A DNA stretch of 42,041 bases from an uncultured Saprospiraceae bacterium. GTDB lineage: Bacteria > Bacteroidota > Bacteroidia > Chitinophagales > Saprospiraceae. This document shows positions 7,670 through 25,276 of this stretch, piece by piece. Below the pieces are notes generated by a model. The model searched no databases. It was not told the origin of the DNA and worked only from the letters and a program-made list of their open reading frames with translations. Both the position numbers and the translations under genes were made by a program. Position 1 is the first letter of the stretch. The number at the start of each line of letters is the position of its first letter. The stretch is from the NCBI GenBank assembly GCA_937924495.1, contig CALDSS010000109.1, forward strand, positions 1 to 42,041, read 5' to 3'.

Positions 7670-9457
7670 TTAAACTTCTGCTTCGTCTTTTACGGTCGAT
7701 TCCAAATACAACTCCTCATATTGCTCATCATGAATCGGCGATGGCGCATCAATCATCATATCTCGTCCCTGATTATTTTTCGGGAAGGCAATGAAATCAC
7801 GGATACTTGACTGACCATTCATCACTGCACACAGTCTATCAAAACCGAAAGCGATACCTCCGTGCGGAGGTGCGCCATACTCAAATGCTCCCAACAAGAA
7901 TCCAAACTGTGCTTCCGCTTCTTCAGGTGTAAAACCGAGCAGTTTGAAATTTTTCGATTGTAGTGCACGGTCGTGGATACGAATCGAACCACCGCCAATC
8001 TCTGAACCATTGATAACCAAATCATACGCATCTGCACGCAATGACTTCATGGTTTCGTGGTCGCCGTTGAGCATCATTTCTACGTGCTCTTTTTTCGGAG
8101 AAGTGAACGGGTGGTGCATCGCGTGGAAACGCTCTGACTCTTCATCCCATTCTAAAAGTGGGAAATCAATTACCCATAATGGTTTGAAATCACCTTCTTT
8201 CATGAGTCCTAAATTACGGCCCATTTCGAGTCGTAATTCACCCATTTGCTTACGAGTTTTATCTAACTCACCACTGAGGATCAACAACATGTCGCCTTTC
8301 TCTGCACCGTACAATTCACCCCAAGCTCGGAGGTCTTCGTCGCTATAAAATTTACCGATTGGCGATTTGATAGTGCCATCCTCATTGAACTTGACATAGA
8401 CCAAACCTTTTGCTCCAATTTGAGGACGTTTGACCCAATCCGTCAATTTATCAATCTTCTTTCGAGAGTAATCTTCTGCCACTCCTTTTGCACAAATTCC
8501 AACGACCAATTCAGCTGATTCGAAAACGCCAAAACCTTTACTTTGAGATTTGATGATGTCGTTGAGTTCAACGAATTCCATCCCAAAACGCAAGTCTGGC
8601 TTATCAATTCCGTAGCGTTTCATTGCCTCGTCGTAGTTCATACGAGGGAAATCAGGCAACTCAATTCCTTTCAATGTTTTGAAAACGTGCTTGGTCAAAC
8701 CTTCAAACGTATTCAAAATATCTTCTTGTGTCACGAAGGACATTTCGCAGTCTATTTGCGTAAACTCTGGCTGACGATCTGCTCTCAAATCTTCATCACG
8801 GAAACATTTTACAATCTGAAAATATTTCTCAAAACCTGCTACCATCAAAATCTGCTTGAACGTCTGCGGTGATTGCGGCAACGCATAAAACTGTCCCGGA
8901 TTCAAACGACTTGGAACAACGAAATCACGAGCACCTTCTGGTGTACTTTTGATCAAGTTTGGCGTTTCTACTTCAATAAAATCATTGCCTGATAAGTACT
9001 TGCGTGTTTCAATTGCTAAGCGAGATCTGAAAAATAAATTCTCTCTAACTGGCGCACGACGCAAATCGAGGTAACGATATTTCATACGCAAATCATCGCC
9101 ACCATCTGTTTCTTCTTCGATGGTAAACGGAGGTGTTTTGGAAGCATTCAACACTTCAAAATTGGTCACCTTTATTTCCACCTCACCCGTAGGAATTTTA
9201 TCATTTTTAGAAGAACGCTCTATTACTTCTCCCGTCACCCGAACGACCCACTCACGCCCAACTGAACGTGCAGTTTCCAGCAACTCAGCCGAGGAAGCAT
9301 TTTCATCAAAAATCAATTGCGTAATCCCGTATCGATCACGCAAATCAATCCACATCATGAATCCTTTATCACGAGCTTTCTGAACCCAGCCGCTAAGGGT
9401 TACTGTTTTTCCTATATCTGCTATGCGCAGTTCTCCGCAGTTATGTGTGCGATACAT
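7670..9457 (-). CDS. aspS: Aspartyl-tRNA synthetase
   Basis: This class II synthetase charges tRNA-Asp. The 595-residue length is normal for the bacterial form. An N-terminal OB-fold anticodon-binding domain (to about residue 105) is followed by the catalytic core interrupted by the bacterial GAD insertion (roughly residues 280-420). Class II motif 2 appears as [18 protein letters not shown] and motif 3 as [10 protein letters not shown] near the C-terminus. The [10 protein letters not shown] aspartate-binding segment is present. The start is supported by a perfect -7 box at 9532-9525. Whether the enzyme is discriminating or also charges tRNA-Asn cannot be decided here. Confidence 0.96.
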
Positions 9458-9524
9458 TTCTTTCTTATTTTAAAATGAAATATCTAAGACGCTATTTGAA
9501 CGCCACCACCTTAAAAATGGTGCG

Positions 9525-11421: not shown

Positions 11422-11496
11422 GGGCAATTAGCTCAGCTGGTTCAGAGCACCTCGTTTACACCGAGGGGGTCGGAGGTTCGAATCCTTCATTGCCCA
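11422..11496 (+). tRNA. tRNA-Val (anticodon UAC)
   Basis: The 75-base cloverleaf is complete. The acceptor stem is GGGCAAT/ATTGCCC with discriminator A, the D-stem is GCTC/GAGC, and the anticodon stem is CCTCG/CGAGG around loop TTTACAC (anticodon TAC at 11457-11459). The T-loop is TTCGAAT. CCA is not encoded. It has its own promoter and terminator, so it is a single-gene transcription unit. Confidence 0.96.
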
Positions 11497-11634: not shown

Positions 11635-14274
11635 ATGTTAAAAAAAATTCTTCTTTGGTTTGGTGGCTTTTTTCTCCTCTTTTTGATTGCAACGGTCGTG
11701 CTTTCTGCCTTTTTTGAAAAGGAAATTGGGGATACCATTATTTCACAAGCCAACCAGTCACTCAAAACTAAATTGTCGGTGAAGGATTTCGATCTTGATT
11801 TTTTTAGGGGCTTTCCTAATGTTTCAGCCGAGTTGTTGGATGTGACTATAAAAGACACCAAAGGGAAAAATTTATTAGTAGCCGAATCTATTGGTTTCAA
11901 ATTGGGATTGTTTAGCCTTTTTAAAACGAAAAAGAATATCAAAGAAGTCCTTATTGAAGAGGGCGCCTTGACGGTAGTTTTCGACAAAAAAGGAAGAGCC
12001 AATTATGATATTGTAAAATCAAGCGGCGCAACAGAAGAGGAATCGAATACTTCAATCGCTCTGAAAGAAGCTGTTTTGAAAAATATAGAGCTCATTTATG
12101 AAGACAAACGAACAGAGCAAGAAGCTTACATCGTAATAAAAGATGCTGTTTTTTCAGGAGAATTTTCAGCAGACAAGTTTGCCATGACCAGCGATGCCAA
12201 TCTAATCTCTAAATTCGTTGACCTCGGAGAGTATCGATATTTAATAGGAAAAGATTTAAAGTATGATGCAATATTATATATCGACAGCAAGGGAGGATTA
12301 TATGATTTTGAAAAACTGAATGTCTCAATTGATGATAATATTTTCAGAGTTGGAGGATTTGTTGATAATGATGCTAAACGAAAAGAAACTGATTTTGATC
12401 TCACCATAACTTGTAGTGAAGGAAGTGTGGGATCAATTATTCAACTATTGCCAGAGCAATACCTCCAACCACTCAGTGATTTTTCAGGGAATGGGCGTTT
12501 TTTATTTGAGTCAAAAATTAAAGGTCGTATGAGTGGCAAGGCACAGCCTGCTATTGATACAAAATTCATTTTAAAAGATGGGCGCATCACCAGTCCTCGC
12601 CTCGAGAATGACTTGAAAGATGTTTCTTTTTCCTCCACTTTCACGAATGGTGCCTATCGCAAAGCATCCAGTTCTGTTTTTGAAATCAAAAATTTTAAAG
12701 GTTACTTTAATCGAGAGTTGGTGGAGATGAAAATGAAAGTTGAAAATATTGATGATCCGAAAATTAACTTTCAATTGGATGGCGCAGTACCGATGAAATC
12801 GATTTTTAAATTTTTTAATAATCCGAATATAACGGACGGGCGCGGTGAAGTAGAAATCCACAATGTAAAAGTGAAAGGTCGATACAAGGATATGGTCAGT
12901 ACCTCTCGCATTCATCGAGTCGATGCTTCAGGCAAATTAGTTTTGGATGACGCCTCACTTGCCTTTAAGGATGAAAAACTGGTTTTTGATAGAGGGACGA
13001 TTTCATTAAAAGATAATGATTTGAAAGTTGATGGTTTAAAGTTGGAAGGAGCAGGTAGTGAGATGATCTTTAATGGAGATTTTAAAAATTTCCTTCCTGT
13101 GCTCTTGGCAGATTCTTTAAACTCTAAAAACGCAGAATTGGTTTTTGATGCAGAATTAGTAGCTGAAGAATTTGATGGAGATAAATTAATGGCATTGACT
13201 GCAGTGCCAGAAAGTCAAATTGATGAGGAGCAAAAAGTAGTAGATTCTTTAAACGTAGAAGTCAATGAGGGGCGGGAATTTCTCACCAGTTTTTTGAATG
13301 GAACCTTCAATGCAACTATCGAAAATTTCAATTATAATAAAATTGAAGGAAAGAATTTTGAGGGAGAAATAGCATTTGAAGATAATCAAATTGAAATTGT
13401 TGGAGATGCAGAAGCGATGGATGGCATGTTTGAAATTGACGGAACGCTTTTCGTTGATAAAAAACCAAACTTGACAGCAAAAATAAAATGTGATGGCATC
13501 GATGCTCATGAATTTTTCCGTCAATCCGAAAACTTCGGTCAGGAATTTTTGAAGGCAAAAAATGTTACTGGTACGCTCAACTCTCGAATGCTCATCAATG
13601 CTTTTTGGGACGAGAAAGGAGAATTTTTGTACGATGATTTAGCTGTTTTTGCGGGCGTAGGTATTCAACAAGGAGAGTTGAAAGACTTCGAGATGTTAGA
13701 ATACTTTTCTACATTCATTAAAATGCGAGATTTAGAAAACATCAAATTTGTCGATGTTGAAAATTGGATAAAAGTACAAAACCAAAAGGTGTATCTGCCT
13801 GCCATGTTTATCAGGAGTAATGCCGTGAACTTGGAGGTTTCGGGGACACACACTTTTGAACAAGACATCGATTATAATGTAAAAGTCAATGCTGGCCAAG
13901 TATTAGTCAATCGGCTAAAACCGCATAATCCGAACCTCAATCCACAACCGACCAAGCGTCGTGGTTGGTTCAATCTTTTTTATAAAATCAAGGGCAATCT
14001 TGAGGAAGATTACGATACGAAATTAAGTAAGCGGTCTGTCAAAAAAGCAATGGCTCAAAGCGAATTATTGAAGAAACGTATTCAGTCTGAATTAGAAAAA
14101 AAGTTTGGTCCTATTCAATTGCTCGATGAGGAGAGTCTGGAAGAACGAGAAGAAATTTTTCTTGATGAAACGCCTTCGAAAACAACCGCCTCGACGAAAA
14201 CAAAACCCAAAACTAAATCGAAACCAAAGGTGCAAGAGGAAGATGATGACGAAGAATACATTGATGGATTTTAA
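11635..14274 (+). CDS. AsmA-family envelope protein
   Basis: The 879-residue product has one N-terminal transmembrane anchor (about residues 4-28) followed by a very long beta-strand-rich periplasmic region. This is the layout of AsmA/TamB/YhdP-type proteins, which form hydrophobic grooves bridging inner and outer membranes and are implicated in phospholipid transport. The N-terminal part shows the AsmA pattern (FRGFPNVSAELLDVTIKD; VAESIGFKLGLFSLF), and an AsmA-like C-terminal region occupies roughly residues 560-790 (VTGTLNSRM, VSGTHTFEQDIDYNVKV). The last 30 residues are a Lys/Thr-rich stretch followed by an acidic tail ending DDDEEYIDGF. It is probably transcribed alone. Family is fairly sure; cargo is unknown. 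Confidence 0.85.
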   Translation: MLKKILLWFGGFFLLFLIATVVLSAFFEKEIGDTIISQANQSLKTKLSVKDFDLDFFRGFPNVSAELLDVTIKDTKGKNLLVAESIGFKLGLFSLFKTKKNIKEVLIEEGALTVVFDKKGRANYDIVKSSGATEEESNTSIALKEAVLKNIELIYEDKRTEQEAYIVIKDAVFSGEFSADKFAMTSDANLISKFVDLGEYRYLIGKDLKYDAILYIDSKGGLYDFEKLNVSIDDNIFRVGGFVDNDAKRKETDFDLTITCSEGSVGSIIQLLPEQYLQPLSDFSGNGRFLFESKIKGRMSGKAQPAIDTKFILKDGRITSPRLENDLKDVSFSSTFTNGAYRKASSSVFEIKNFKGYFNRELVEMKMKVENIDDPKINFQLDGAVPMKSIFKFFNNPNITDGRGEVEIHNVKVKGRYKDMVSTSRIHRVDASGKLVLDDASLAFKDEKLVFDRGTISLKDNDLKVDGLKLEGAGSEMIFNGDFKNFLPVLLADSLNSKNAELVFDAELVAEEFDGDKLMALTAVPESQIDEEQKVVDSLNVEVNEGREFLTSFLNGTFNATIENFNYNKIEGKNFEGEIAFEDNQIEIVGDAEAMDGMFEIDGTLFVDKKPNLTAKIKCDGIDAHEFFRQSENFGQEFLKAKNVTGTLNSRMLINAFWDEKGEFLYDDLAVFAGVGIQQGELKDFEMLEYFSTFIKMRDLENIKFVDVENWIKVQNQKVYLPAMFIRSNAVNLEVSGTHTFEQDIDYNVKVNAGQVLVNRLKPHNPNLNPQPTKRRGWFNLFYKIKGNLEEDYDTKLSKRSVKKAMAQSELLKKRIQSELEKKFGPIQLLDEESLEEREEIFLDETPSKTTASTKTKPKTKSKPKVQEEDDDEEYIDGF

Positions 14275-14422: not shown

Positions 14423-16000
14423 ATGTTAGATTTACTAATCATCGGAGGAGGGCCAACGGGCATCAGTACAGGCATTGCAGCTACCAAAGCAGGTCTTGAT
14501 TTCTTGATTGTTGAAAAGGGGGTTTTAGTTAATTCCATTTTTCATTTTCCCACTAATATGACTTTTTTCTCTACTTCCAAATTATTGGAAATAGGGGACG
14601 TACCATTCATTTCTCATACAGACAAACCAACAAGAAGAGAAGCACTTGAGTATTATCGCCGATTGGTTGAAACGTGGAAACTACCCGTCCATACTTATGA
14701 AGAAGTTTTAGAGTTGAACAGAAAGGAGCATAAATTTTATGAGATAAAAACTTCTAAAAAAGTCTATCAAGCAAAGCAAGTTGTTGTCTGCACTGGTTTT
14801 TACGATGTTCCTCGAATGTTGAATGTGGCAGGAGAAGATTTGCCGAAGGTTAAGCATTATTATGATGAGGCTCATCCTTATATTGGCAAAAAAATCATAG
14901 TGGTGGGTGCTGCAAATTCTGGTTGTGATGTCGCATTGGAGCTTTGGCAAAAAGGAGCTGAAGTAACCATGGCTGTGCGCAAACCTACCATTTATGAAAA
15001 GGTAAAATATTGGATAAAACCAAATATCGAAAATCGAATCAAAGAGGGGAGCATCAAAGCATTTTTCAACACAAATGTTCAGGAAATTAGAGAAACCTAT
15101 GTTGTTTTGAACACACCTGAAGGAGCAATCGAGATTGAAAATGATTTTGTTTTTGCTATGACGGGTTATCATCCCAACTTCAAACTTTTAGAAAAATTAG
15201 GAATTGAAATTTCTAATACAGACAAACCAACAAGAAGAGAAGCACTTGAGTATTATCGCCGATTAGTTGAAACGTGGAATCTACCCGTCCATACTTATGA
15301 AGAAGTTTTTGAGCTGAACAAGAAGGAGCAAGAATTTTATGAGGTAAAAACTTCTAAAAAAACCTATCAAGCAAAGCAAGTTGTTGTCTGCACTGGTTTC
15401 TACGATGTTCCTCGAATGTTGAATGTGGCAGGAGAAGATTTGCCGAAGGTCAAGCATTATTATGATGAGGCTCATCCTTATATTGGTAAAAAAATTCTGG
15501 TGGTAGGGGCAGCAAATTCTGGCTGTGATGTTGCATTGGAGCTCTGGCAAAAAGGAGCTGAAGTAACCATGGCTGTGCGCAAACCCACCATTTATGAAAA
15601 AGTAAAATATTGGATAAAACCAAATATCGAAAATCGAATCAAAGAGGGGAGCATCAAAGCATTTTTCAATACTAATGTTCAGGAAATCAAAGAGACCTCT
15701 GTTGTTTTGAACACACCTGAAGGAGCAATCGAGATTGAAAATGATTTTGTTTTTGCTATGACGGGTTATCATCCCAACTTCAAACTTTTAGAAAAATTAG
15801 GAATTGAAATTTCTAATACTGAAGAAAAAATCCCCACTCACCATTCTGAAACTTTAGAAACAAATTTACCTGGGGTTTATCTGGCAGGAGTCGTTTGTGC
15901 GGGGATGCTCACGAGTAAGTTGTTTATTGAAAATACACGGGAACATGGGGAGATAATAGTGGATCATATTCTTCAAAAAACAAAACAGCCGATGAGTTAA
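14423..16000 (+). CDS. YpdA-like FAD/NADPH disulfide reductase with internal 200-residue duplication
   Basis: The product resembles the YpdA/Bdr family, NADPH-dependent flavoproteins proposed to reduce bacillithiol disulfide. Family landmarks are the FAD-binding GGGPTG at residues 8-13, FPTNMTFFSTSKLLE, TRREALEYYRRL, the NADPH-binding VVGAANSGCDVALE, KYWIKPNIENRIKEG, FVFAMTGYHPNF and the C-terminal LAGVVCAG...IENTREHGE. Normal length is about 325 residues; this one has 525 because residues 66-265 are repeated as 266-465 (period exactly 600 bp, about 95% identical). The frame stays open throughout. Position 12 is Thr where the characterised Firmicutes enzymes have their catalytic Cys (GGGPCG). 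Its neighbours, AsmA and prs, say nothing about its role. It could be functional, misfolded or a decaying fusion. Confidence 0.85.
   Translation: MLDLLIIGGGPTGISTGIAATKAGLDFLIVEKGVLVNSIFHFPTNMTFFSTSKLLEIGDVPFISHTDKPTRREALEYYRRLVETWKLPVHTYEEVLELNRKEHKFYEIKTSKKVYQAKQVVVCTGFYDVPRMLNVAGEDLPKVKHYYDEAHPYIGKKIIVVGAANSGCDVALELWQKGAEVTMAVRKPTIYEKVKYWIKPNIENRIKEGSIKAFFNTNVQEIRETYVVLNTPEGAIEIENDFVFAMTGYHPNFKLLEKLGIEISNTDKPTRREALEYYRRLVETWNLPVHTYEEVFELNKKEQEFYEVKTSKKTYQAKQVVVCTGFYDVPRMLNVAGEDLPKVKHYYDEAHPYIGKKILVVGAANSGCDVALELWQKGAEVTMAVRKPTIYEKVKYWIKPNIENRIKEGSIKAFFNTNVQEIKETSVVLNTPEGAIEIENDFVFAMTGYHPNFKLLEKLGIEISNTEEKIPTHHSETLETNLPGVYLAGVVCAGMLTSKLFIENTREHGEIIVDHILQKTKQPMS
14618..15817 (+). repeat. Direct tandem repeat, 2 x 600 bp, in frame inside the YpdA-like gene
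   Basis: Unit 1 is 14618-15217 and unit 2 is 15218-15817. I count about 32 mismatches by eye (roughly 95% identity) and no indels; the last ~120 bases of the units are identical. The entry point reads ttctcatac and both exits read ttctaatac, a nine-base micro-homology with one mismatch that could have seeded the duplication. About 10 of 200 residues differ, fewer than random change would give. Confidence 0.95.
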
Positions 16001-16055: not shown

Positions 16056-16991
16056 TCACCCATCCACAAACAAAGCAGAAATTGAACGATGCTCATGCGT
16101 ATTTCGAATAGCACGTGCAAACAATTTTGCGGTAGAAAGGACTTTTATCTTTTTCGATTTTTTATCATTTAATGGAATCGTATCACAAACAATCAATTGA
16201 TCCAATTTTGAATTATTGATGTTTTCGATAGCATTGCCAGAAAGAACTGGATGCGTACAAATCGCACGAACACTTCTTGCTCCATTTTCAATCAAAGCAT
16301 CTGCTGCTTTGCAAAGCGTGCCTGCTGTATCTACTAAATCATCCACTAAGATTACATCTGCACCAATTACATCACCGATTACGGTCATGCCTGCTACTTC
16401 ATTCGCCACTTTTCGATATTTATCACAAATCACTAATCGCTTCTCGAAATGCTTTGCGTAAGTTCTCGCCCTTTTTACGCCACCAACATCTGGTGAAGCA
16501 AAAATTGCATTTGACAAATCTTGCTCTTGCAAATAAGGAATATAAATCGCTTGACTCTTCAAGTGATCCACCGGTATGTCAAAAAATCCCTGAATTTGAT
16601 CAGCGTGAAAATCCATGGTCATGATTCGATTGGCACCTGCTGCTTGTAAAAGATTTGCAATCAACTTTGCTGAAATTGGAACTCGTGGTTTGTCCTTTCG
16701 ATCTTGACGTGCATATCCAAAATAAGGAATTACGGCGGTAATGTAACCCGCAGATGCTCGCTTGGCAGCATCAACTAAGAGTAGCAATTCCATTAAATTT
16801 TCAGATGGAGCAAAAGTCGATTGAATAAAGAAAACATACGCACCTCTCACAGATTCATTGATAACCGGCTGCATTTCGCCGTCTTTGAAAGTGTGTAGTG
16901 TGTAGTCTCCTAAATCCTGATTGTAGTAATCTGAAATTTTAGAAGCCAGGTATCTAGAGTTGACACCTGAGAACAATTTGACATCAGTCAT
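16056..16991 (-). CDS. prs: Ribose-phosphate pyrophosphokinase
   Basis: PRPP synthetase transfers pyrophosphate from ATP to ribose 5-phosphate, feeding purine, pyrimidine, His, Trp and NAD synthesis. The product shows the N-terminal LFSG turn, the flexible loop YFGYARQDRKDKPR, the DFHADQIQGFF segment and the PRPP-binding VILVDDLVDTAGT. The start at 16991 (MTDVKLFSG) gives 311 residues, normal for the family. An upstream in-frame ATG at 17042 would add 17 Ser/Pro/Thr-rich residues and also lies downstream of the likely promoter, so it cannot be excluded. Confidence 0.94.
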   Translation of the reverse strand: MTDVKLFSGVNSRYLASKISDYYNQDLGDYTLHTFKDGEMQPVINESVRGAYVFFIQSTFAPSENLMELLLLVDAAKRASAGYITAVIPYFGYARQDRKDKPRVPISAKLIANLLQAAGANRIMTMDFHADQIQGFFDIPVDHLKSQAIYIPYLQEQDLSNAIFASPDVGGVKRARTYAKHFEKRLVICDKYRKVANEVAGMTVIGDVIGADVILVDDLVDTAGTLCKAADALIENGARSVRAICTHPVLSGNAIENINNSKLDQLIVCDTIPLNDKKSKKIKVLSTAKLFARAIRNTHEHRSISALFVDG

Positions 16992-17062
16992 AGTAGAGCG
17001 AGATTGTGGCGTTAGGAGTTCGGGAGACGATGATGGTATCATGAATTAAGTTAGCGTTTACG

Positions 17063-17167: not shown

Positions 17168-17191
17168 ATAAACGTATTCTTCAAAATATAT

Positions 17192-17351
17192 GAAGTTGTT
17201 TAAAAATGGAGTTCAGAAGCGAAAATTAGAAGATTAAGGCTCTGAGGAAGTGAAATTAATTAGGCATAGCATCGCTATGGCTAATTAATTTCACGAAATC
17301 AGGTTCTTTAGATTCAAATTTGCAGCTTGAAGGTCATTTTGAAACAACTTC
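17192..17351 (+). repeat. Palindromic intergenic repeat, copy A (160 bp)
   Basis: The terminal inverted repeats GAAGTTGTTT (17192-17201) and AAACAACTTC (17342-17351) extend inward with one mismatch to 17 bp. A central hairpin pairs 17250-17270 with 17274-17294 (20 of 21 bp, 3-base loop). The core shares GGCTCTGAGGAAGT and AGCATAG with copy B. Its outer end overlaps the stop codon of the large T9SS gene at 17351-17353. It encodes no protein. Confidence 0.85.
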
Positions 17352-25116: not shown

Positions 25117-25276
25117 GAAGTTGTTTAAGAATAGATTTTAACCTGCAAATTGGATACTAAAGAACCTGATTTTGCCAAATTTTAAATCCGTAGCACTACT
25201 ATGAATTGAAAATTTGACTTCTTCAAAACCTTTATTCTCAAATTTTCGGTTCTAAACTCCACTCTTAAACAACTTC
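25117..25276 (-). repeat. Palindromic intergenic repeat, copy C (160 bp, inverted)
   Basis: Terminal arms GAAGTTGTTTAAGA (25117-25130) and TCTTAAACAACTTC (25263-25276) are perfect 14-bp inverted repeats. Read on the minus strand it aligns with copy A along its length, sharing the GAAGTTGTTTAA start, TGGAGTT-AGAA, the CGAAAATT block, an ATCAGGTTCTTTAG block and GCAG-TT near the end. It lies between the divergent RNA methyltransferase operon and rplS. Confidence 0.85.

Follow-up and report, generated by a model that had tools for sequence, protein, structure and literature searches.

A single reading frame in this Saprospiraceae contig appears to encode the NADPH-binding part of a YpdA-like flavoenzyme twice. 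This raises the question of whether the duplication exists in the organism or was created during assembly and, if it is real, how it arose and what kind of protein it specifies. The window analyzed here is one complete contig (42,041 nucleotides) from a draft genome that comprises 211 contigs, totals 3.26 Mb and is 85.9% complete. The closest named relatives of this genome are Saprospiraceae MAGs, and it behaves like an uncultured Saprospiraceae MAG itself.

The frame starts with ATG and contains a repeat with a period of exactly 600 bp, free of indels and with the reading frame intact, so that codons 66–265 appear again as codons 266–465 (Table 1). The internal in-frame duplication of 200 codons described in the first-pass annotation is thus borne out. 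At the DNA level the 600-bp unit spans 14620–15219 and 15220–15819, while the aligned repeat overall covers 14609–15219 versus 15209–15819 (611 bp, 94.8% identity). The annotation had the unit contain the whole NADPH-binding domain, which is correct, but the unit also extends into the FAD-domain side, of which it takes in residues 66 to about 118. Its count of about ten residue changes likewise stands, while its 32 base differences are made up of 31 inside the unit, producing 10 residue changes, and one outside it, at 14615/15215 in the junction homology. The assignment to the YpdA family is supported by a score of 742.5 bits against TIGR04018 (YpdA; curated cut-off 339.9 bits), obtained over two stretches, and the GGGPTG sequence near the N terminus corresponds to the FAD Rossmann motif GxGxxG.

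Table 1. Features of the ypdA-like locus (window coordinates).
Feature	Position	Strand	Remarks
AsmA-like gene, upstream	11635..14274	+	879 aa; syntenic in congeners; product name presumed
ypdA-like gene with internal duplication	14423..16000	+	525 aa; TIGR04018, 742 bits, two stretches
Codons 1–65, single: N-terminal FAD-binding part (GGGPTG)	14423..14617	+	
Unit 1, codons 66–265: FAD-side segment, hinge, NADPH-binding domain	14618..15217	+	
Junction, 11-bp imperfect microhomology ATTTCT[A/C]ATAC	15209..15219	+	partner 14609–14619
Unit 2, codons 266–465: second copy of unit 1 segment	15218..15817	+	DNA 94.8% identical
Codons 466–525, single: C-terminal FAD-binding part	15818..15997	+	
prs-like gene (ribose-phosphate pyrophosphokinase), downstream	16056..17042	-	328 aa; syntenic in congeners; product name presumed

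The neighboring genes, which from family knowledge we take to be an AsmA-like gene and prs, allow the locus to be compared between genomes. Two congeners have the order AsmA-like–ypdA–prs at the same locus, with one ypdA of 324–326 aa. Since the orthologous locus of the congeners holds a single ypdA, the duplication arose within the host lineage. For the same reason, a fusion of two full tandem genes was rejected, and the suggestion that two former tandem genes had later fused finds no support among the relatives. A YpdA match was found in 251 of 398 genomes in the family scan, and among the matches listed there was no second doubled architecture of 525 aa. The YpdA proteins of the relatives are 317–354 aa long; a usual YpdA has about 320–330 aa and a single NADPH domain, features that lie outside the curated cut-off and from which the 525-aa product departs. 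A 681-aa open frame in another genome (G160) was considered as a second long form and was found to consist of an ordinary single YpdA preceded by a long open frame. In one of the congeners (L033, 4008–5336) an unrelated 442-aa ORF is located between ypdA and prs. In the window, a tRNA gene (11422–11496) also precedes the AsmA-like gene, and there are two copies, at 17187–17351 and 25117–25276, of a dispersed palindromic MITE-like element of about 160 bp with the terminal inverted repeat GAAGTTGTTT...AAACAACTTC. The first copy lies directly 3' of a 1558-aa ORF, and about 15–18 related copies are present in 1.15 Mb of the host genome.

In a genome of this kind the repeat could be an assembly artefact, in which the single-copy ypdA alleles of two strains were strung together. 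The draft is fragmentary, its close relatives are MAGs, the divergence of the copies is at strain level, and closely related strains are known to cause metagenomic misassembly (PMC9661791). A host-genome sample of 100 stretches (1.15 Mb) was searched for similar repeats. It holds no further tandem repeat matching that of ypdA in length and identity, and the shorter ones in it are mostly decayed or intergenic. Partial tandem duplications decayed with indels are present in the same genome on L217 (8892–9144 / 9234–9485) and L206 (1–360 / 305–665), and the clean ypdA repeat contrasts with them. No N-gap scaffolding was seen in the sampled contigs, the only N runs being whole masked contigs of less than 3 kb.

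The contig ends carry a further trace of the assembly procedure. Among the sampled contigs, 22 ends overlap by exactly 141 bp, repeated 142-mers are completely missing from the sampled 1.1 Mb, and 141-mers repeat at contig termini only. Such a pattern is the hallmark of a de Bruijn assembly run at k=141 with no scaffolding step; the overlaps lead us to infer an assembler such as MEGAHIT with its default largest k. The two ends of the window itself have no partner in the genome, and k was taken from other contigs. The longest exact run common to both units is 120 bp, which is shorter than k, and the graph path through the repeat is therefore unbranched. When k=141 graphs were built explicitly, two single-copy alleles gave no junction node, the tandem together with either single-copy allele gave a broken contig, and the tandem alone was the sole case to give an unbroken one. 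The 137 junction 142-mers are absent from both single-copy alleles, so that two such alleles offer nothing from which the graph could form the junction, and the contig would break. The graph tests thus indicate that the junction sequence was very probably present in the reads and that any single-copy alleles were either missing or too rare to survive pruning. Neither the tandem-repeat search, the inspection for N gaps, the contig-end k nor the explicit graphs support misassembly of a strain mixture, and the position of the junction at a microhomology is what real recombination would be expected to leave. We consequently regard the artefact as unlikely.

The junction homology, ATTTCT[C/A]ATAC, is 11 bp long with one mismatch. 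Out of the 208,125 position pairs that the gene offers, only 8 match equally well (3.8e-5). Such a homology suggests illegitimate recombination at short homology or slippage, in agreement with the microhomology origin proposed earlier.

The differences between the units are distributed over codon positions 1, 2 and 3 as 5, 4 and 22. The resulting dS is 0.174 and dN 0.025, a ratio of 0.14 that lies far below 1 (Fisher 1.7e-7), which confirms the low dN/dS that the first-pass annotation had anticipated. The ratio is somewhat higher than that between two congeners (0.054; p = 0.09 for the difference). All 10 changed residues are located at columns that vary in relatives. There was no signal of asymmetric decay of either unit; the changes are spread over both, and none is strongly assigned to one of them. 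Both units thus look constrained, and decay is detectable in neither. The annotation had read this as purifying selection on both copies; the data are consistent with it, but the mutations are not strongly assignable to each unit and the units may have diverged before they were joined.

The latter possibility leads to a different account of a real tandem, in which already diverged alleles, from conspecific strains or a transient merodiploid, were joined by illegitimate unequal recombination at the microhomology. The tandem would then be young, and the low dN/dS would reflect the earlier, ordinary evolution of a single-copy ypdA. Conspecific strains show a divergence of 5% and a dN/dS of 0.14, and the changes are spread over both units without asymmetry. 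In bacteria, tandem merodiploids are known to arise by unequal crossing-over with incoming DNA, in a transformation-driven process that involves far larger segments (PMC3784515). On the other hand, this account needs two rare events together, a microhomology join between alleles and a homologous integration, and a second haplotype was not seen in the sampled bin, where no cross-contig match exceeded about 220 bp. We consider it rather unlikely, although one genome cannot decide between divergence after the duplication and the joining of pre-diverged alleles. Over these two accounts jointly, the duplication is probably real.

An AlphaFold2 (AF2) model of the 525-aa protein had a mean pLDDT of 80 and a pTM of 0.59. 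The pLDDT was about 75–98 in both NADPH domains and below 50 at the unit junctions. In structure comparison the complete YpdA fold was recovered (Z 37, 314–317 residues, 2.1–2.2 Å), leaving about 200 residues outside it; the alignment used for modeling is deep on unit 1 only and cannot show which unit completes the core. The closest solved structures were 7a76 and 7a7b. The NADPH motif VVGAANSG is intact in both units and, as both domains are placed with good confidence, the prediction of two NADPH domains in one protein is supported. Judging from the model, the product is likely to comprise one complete YpdA fold with one FAD site and one additional NADPH domain. A literature search brought up no domain-doubled relatives of this fold.

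The interpretation that we favor, with a probability of roughly 60%, is a real, lineage-specific partial tandem duplication within a single-copy ypdA. In this reading, illegitimate recombination or slippage during replication would have duplicated 600 bp in frame at ATTTCT[C/A]ATAC, after which the copies would have diverged by about 5% with both under constraint, perhaps because a frame-breaking or misfolding change in either unit would destroy the enzyme. Residues 1–65, one unit and residues 466–525 would form a normal FAD-bound YpdA core accepting hydride from NADPH, while the other unit would fold as an extra NADPH-binding domain inserted in a loop. This extra domain might be redundant or act as a second NADPH donor to the same FAD. 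An arrangement in which one FAD site is served by two NADPH domains per chain and kept by selection in the species seems to us quite unlikely; if true, it could, for example, raise the hydride supply or let the two domains take up two positions simultaneously. Counting against the favored duplication within ypdA are its occurrence in a single genome, the derivation of k from contig-end overlaps and the pTM value. Moreover, homologous recombination should readily remove a 600-bp tandem repeat of 95% identity; for the repeat to have persisted to a dS of 0.17, either selection, low recombination or an origin from already diverged copies is required.

The family assignment does not settle the activity. 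In Staphylococcus aureus YpdA, the NADPH-dependent reduction of BSSB needs the active-site Cys14 of GGGPCG (PMC6591457). The corresponding position is Thr here (residue 12 of the product), and Cys occurred at it in none of 45 homologues, mostly from Bacteroidota and Calditrichota, and in 29 of the 31 sequences of a mostly Bacillales set. In the set of 45, Cys is common at residue 16 (73%) and at residue 292 in single-copy numbering (60%), which represent a possible relocated redox site. A shift of the redox Cys to position 168 in the NADPH domain was rejected, as Cys168 is found in just 19 of the 45 relatives and is not clade-wide. Among the bacillithiol synthesis genes, BshC is present (426 bits, above cut-off), and no BshA was found above its cut-off in this 85.9% complete genome. 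Because the catalytic Cys14 is replaced by Thr, bacillithiol disulfide reductase activity appears doubtful; the protein is a YpdA-family flavoprotein, for which the sequence does not justify the name bacillithiol disulfide reductase.

The doubled ypdA is a mildly surprising variant of a known family rather than a new type of system; one genome is known to carry it, and a benefit of the second NADPH domain is unproven. Provided that the duplication is real, the protein is a naturally occurring example of domain doubling in a well-studied flavoprotein fold, and the gene gives a snapshot of intragenic tandem duplication. It could serve to ask whether a second NADPH domain is beneficial, harmful or just tolerated. 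Being a single case, its broader weight is modest. The graph check, i.e., deriving k from contig-end overlaps and then examining whether a strain mix could yield the junction, can be reused for other duplications in MAGs.

In sequence and in the FAD-N / NADPH / FAD-C layout, the product resembles YpdA/Bdr (TIGR04018; 7a76, 7a7b, 7apr), from which it differs by its length (525 versus about 325 residues), the doubled NADPH-domain segment and Thr in place of the catalytic Cys14. It also resembles flavoenzymes with the same two-domain FAD/NADPH fold and a mobile NADPH domain (Z about 24–28; PMC8564101), but its identity to them is about 18–28%, it has no CXXC motif, and these enzymes are described with one NADPH domain per chain. 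With illegitimate (short-homology) tandem duplications in bacteria, the ypdA repeat shares the short imperfect direct repeat at the junction and the head-to-tail copies. It differs from them in being smaller, strictly intragenic and in frame, and in the 5% difference between its copies, which would stem from long retention or from formation between alleles.
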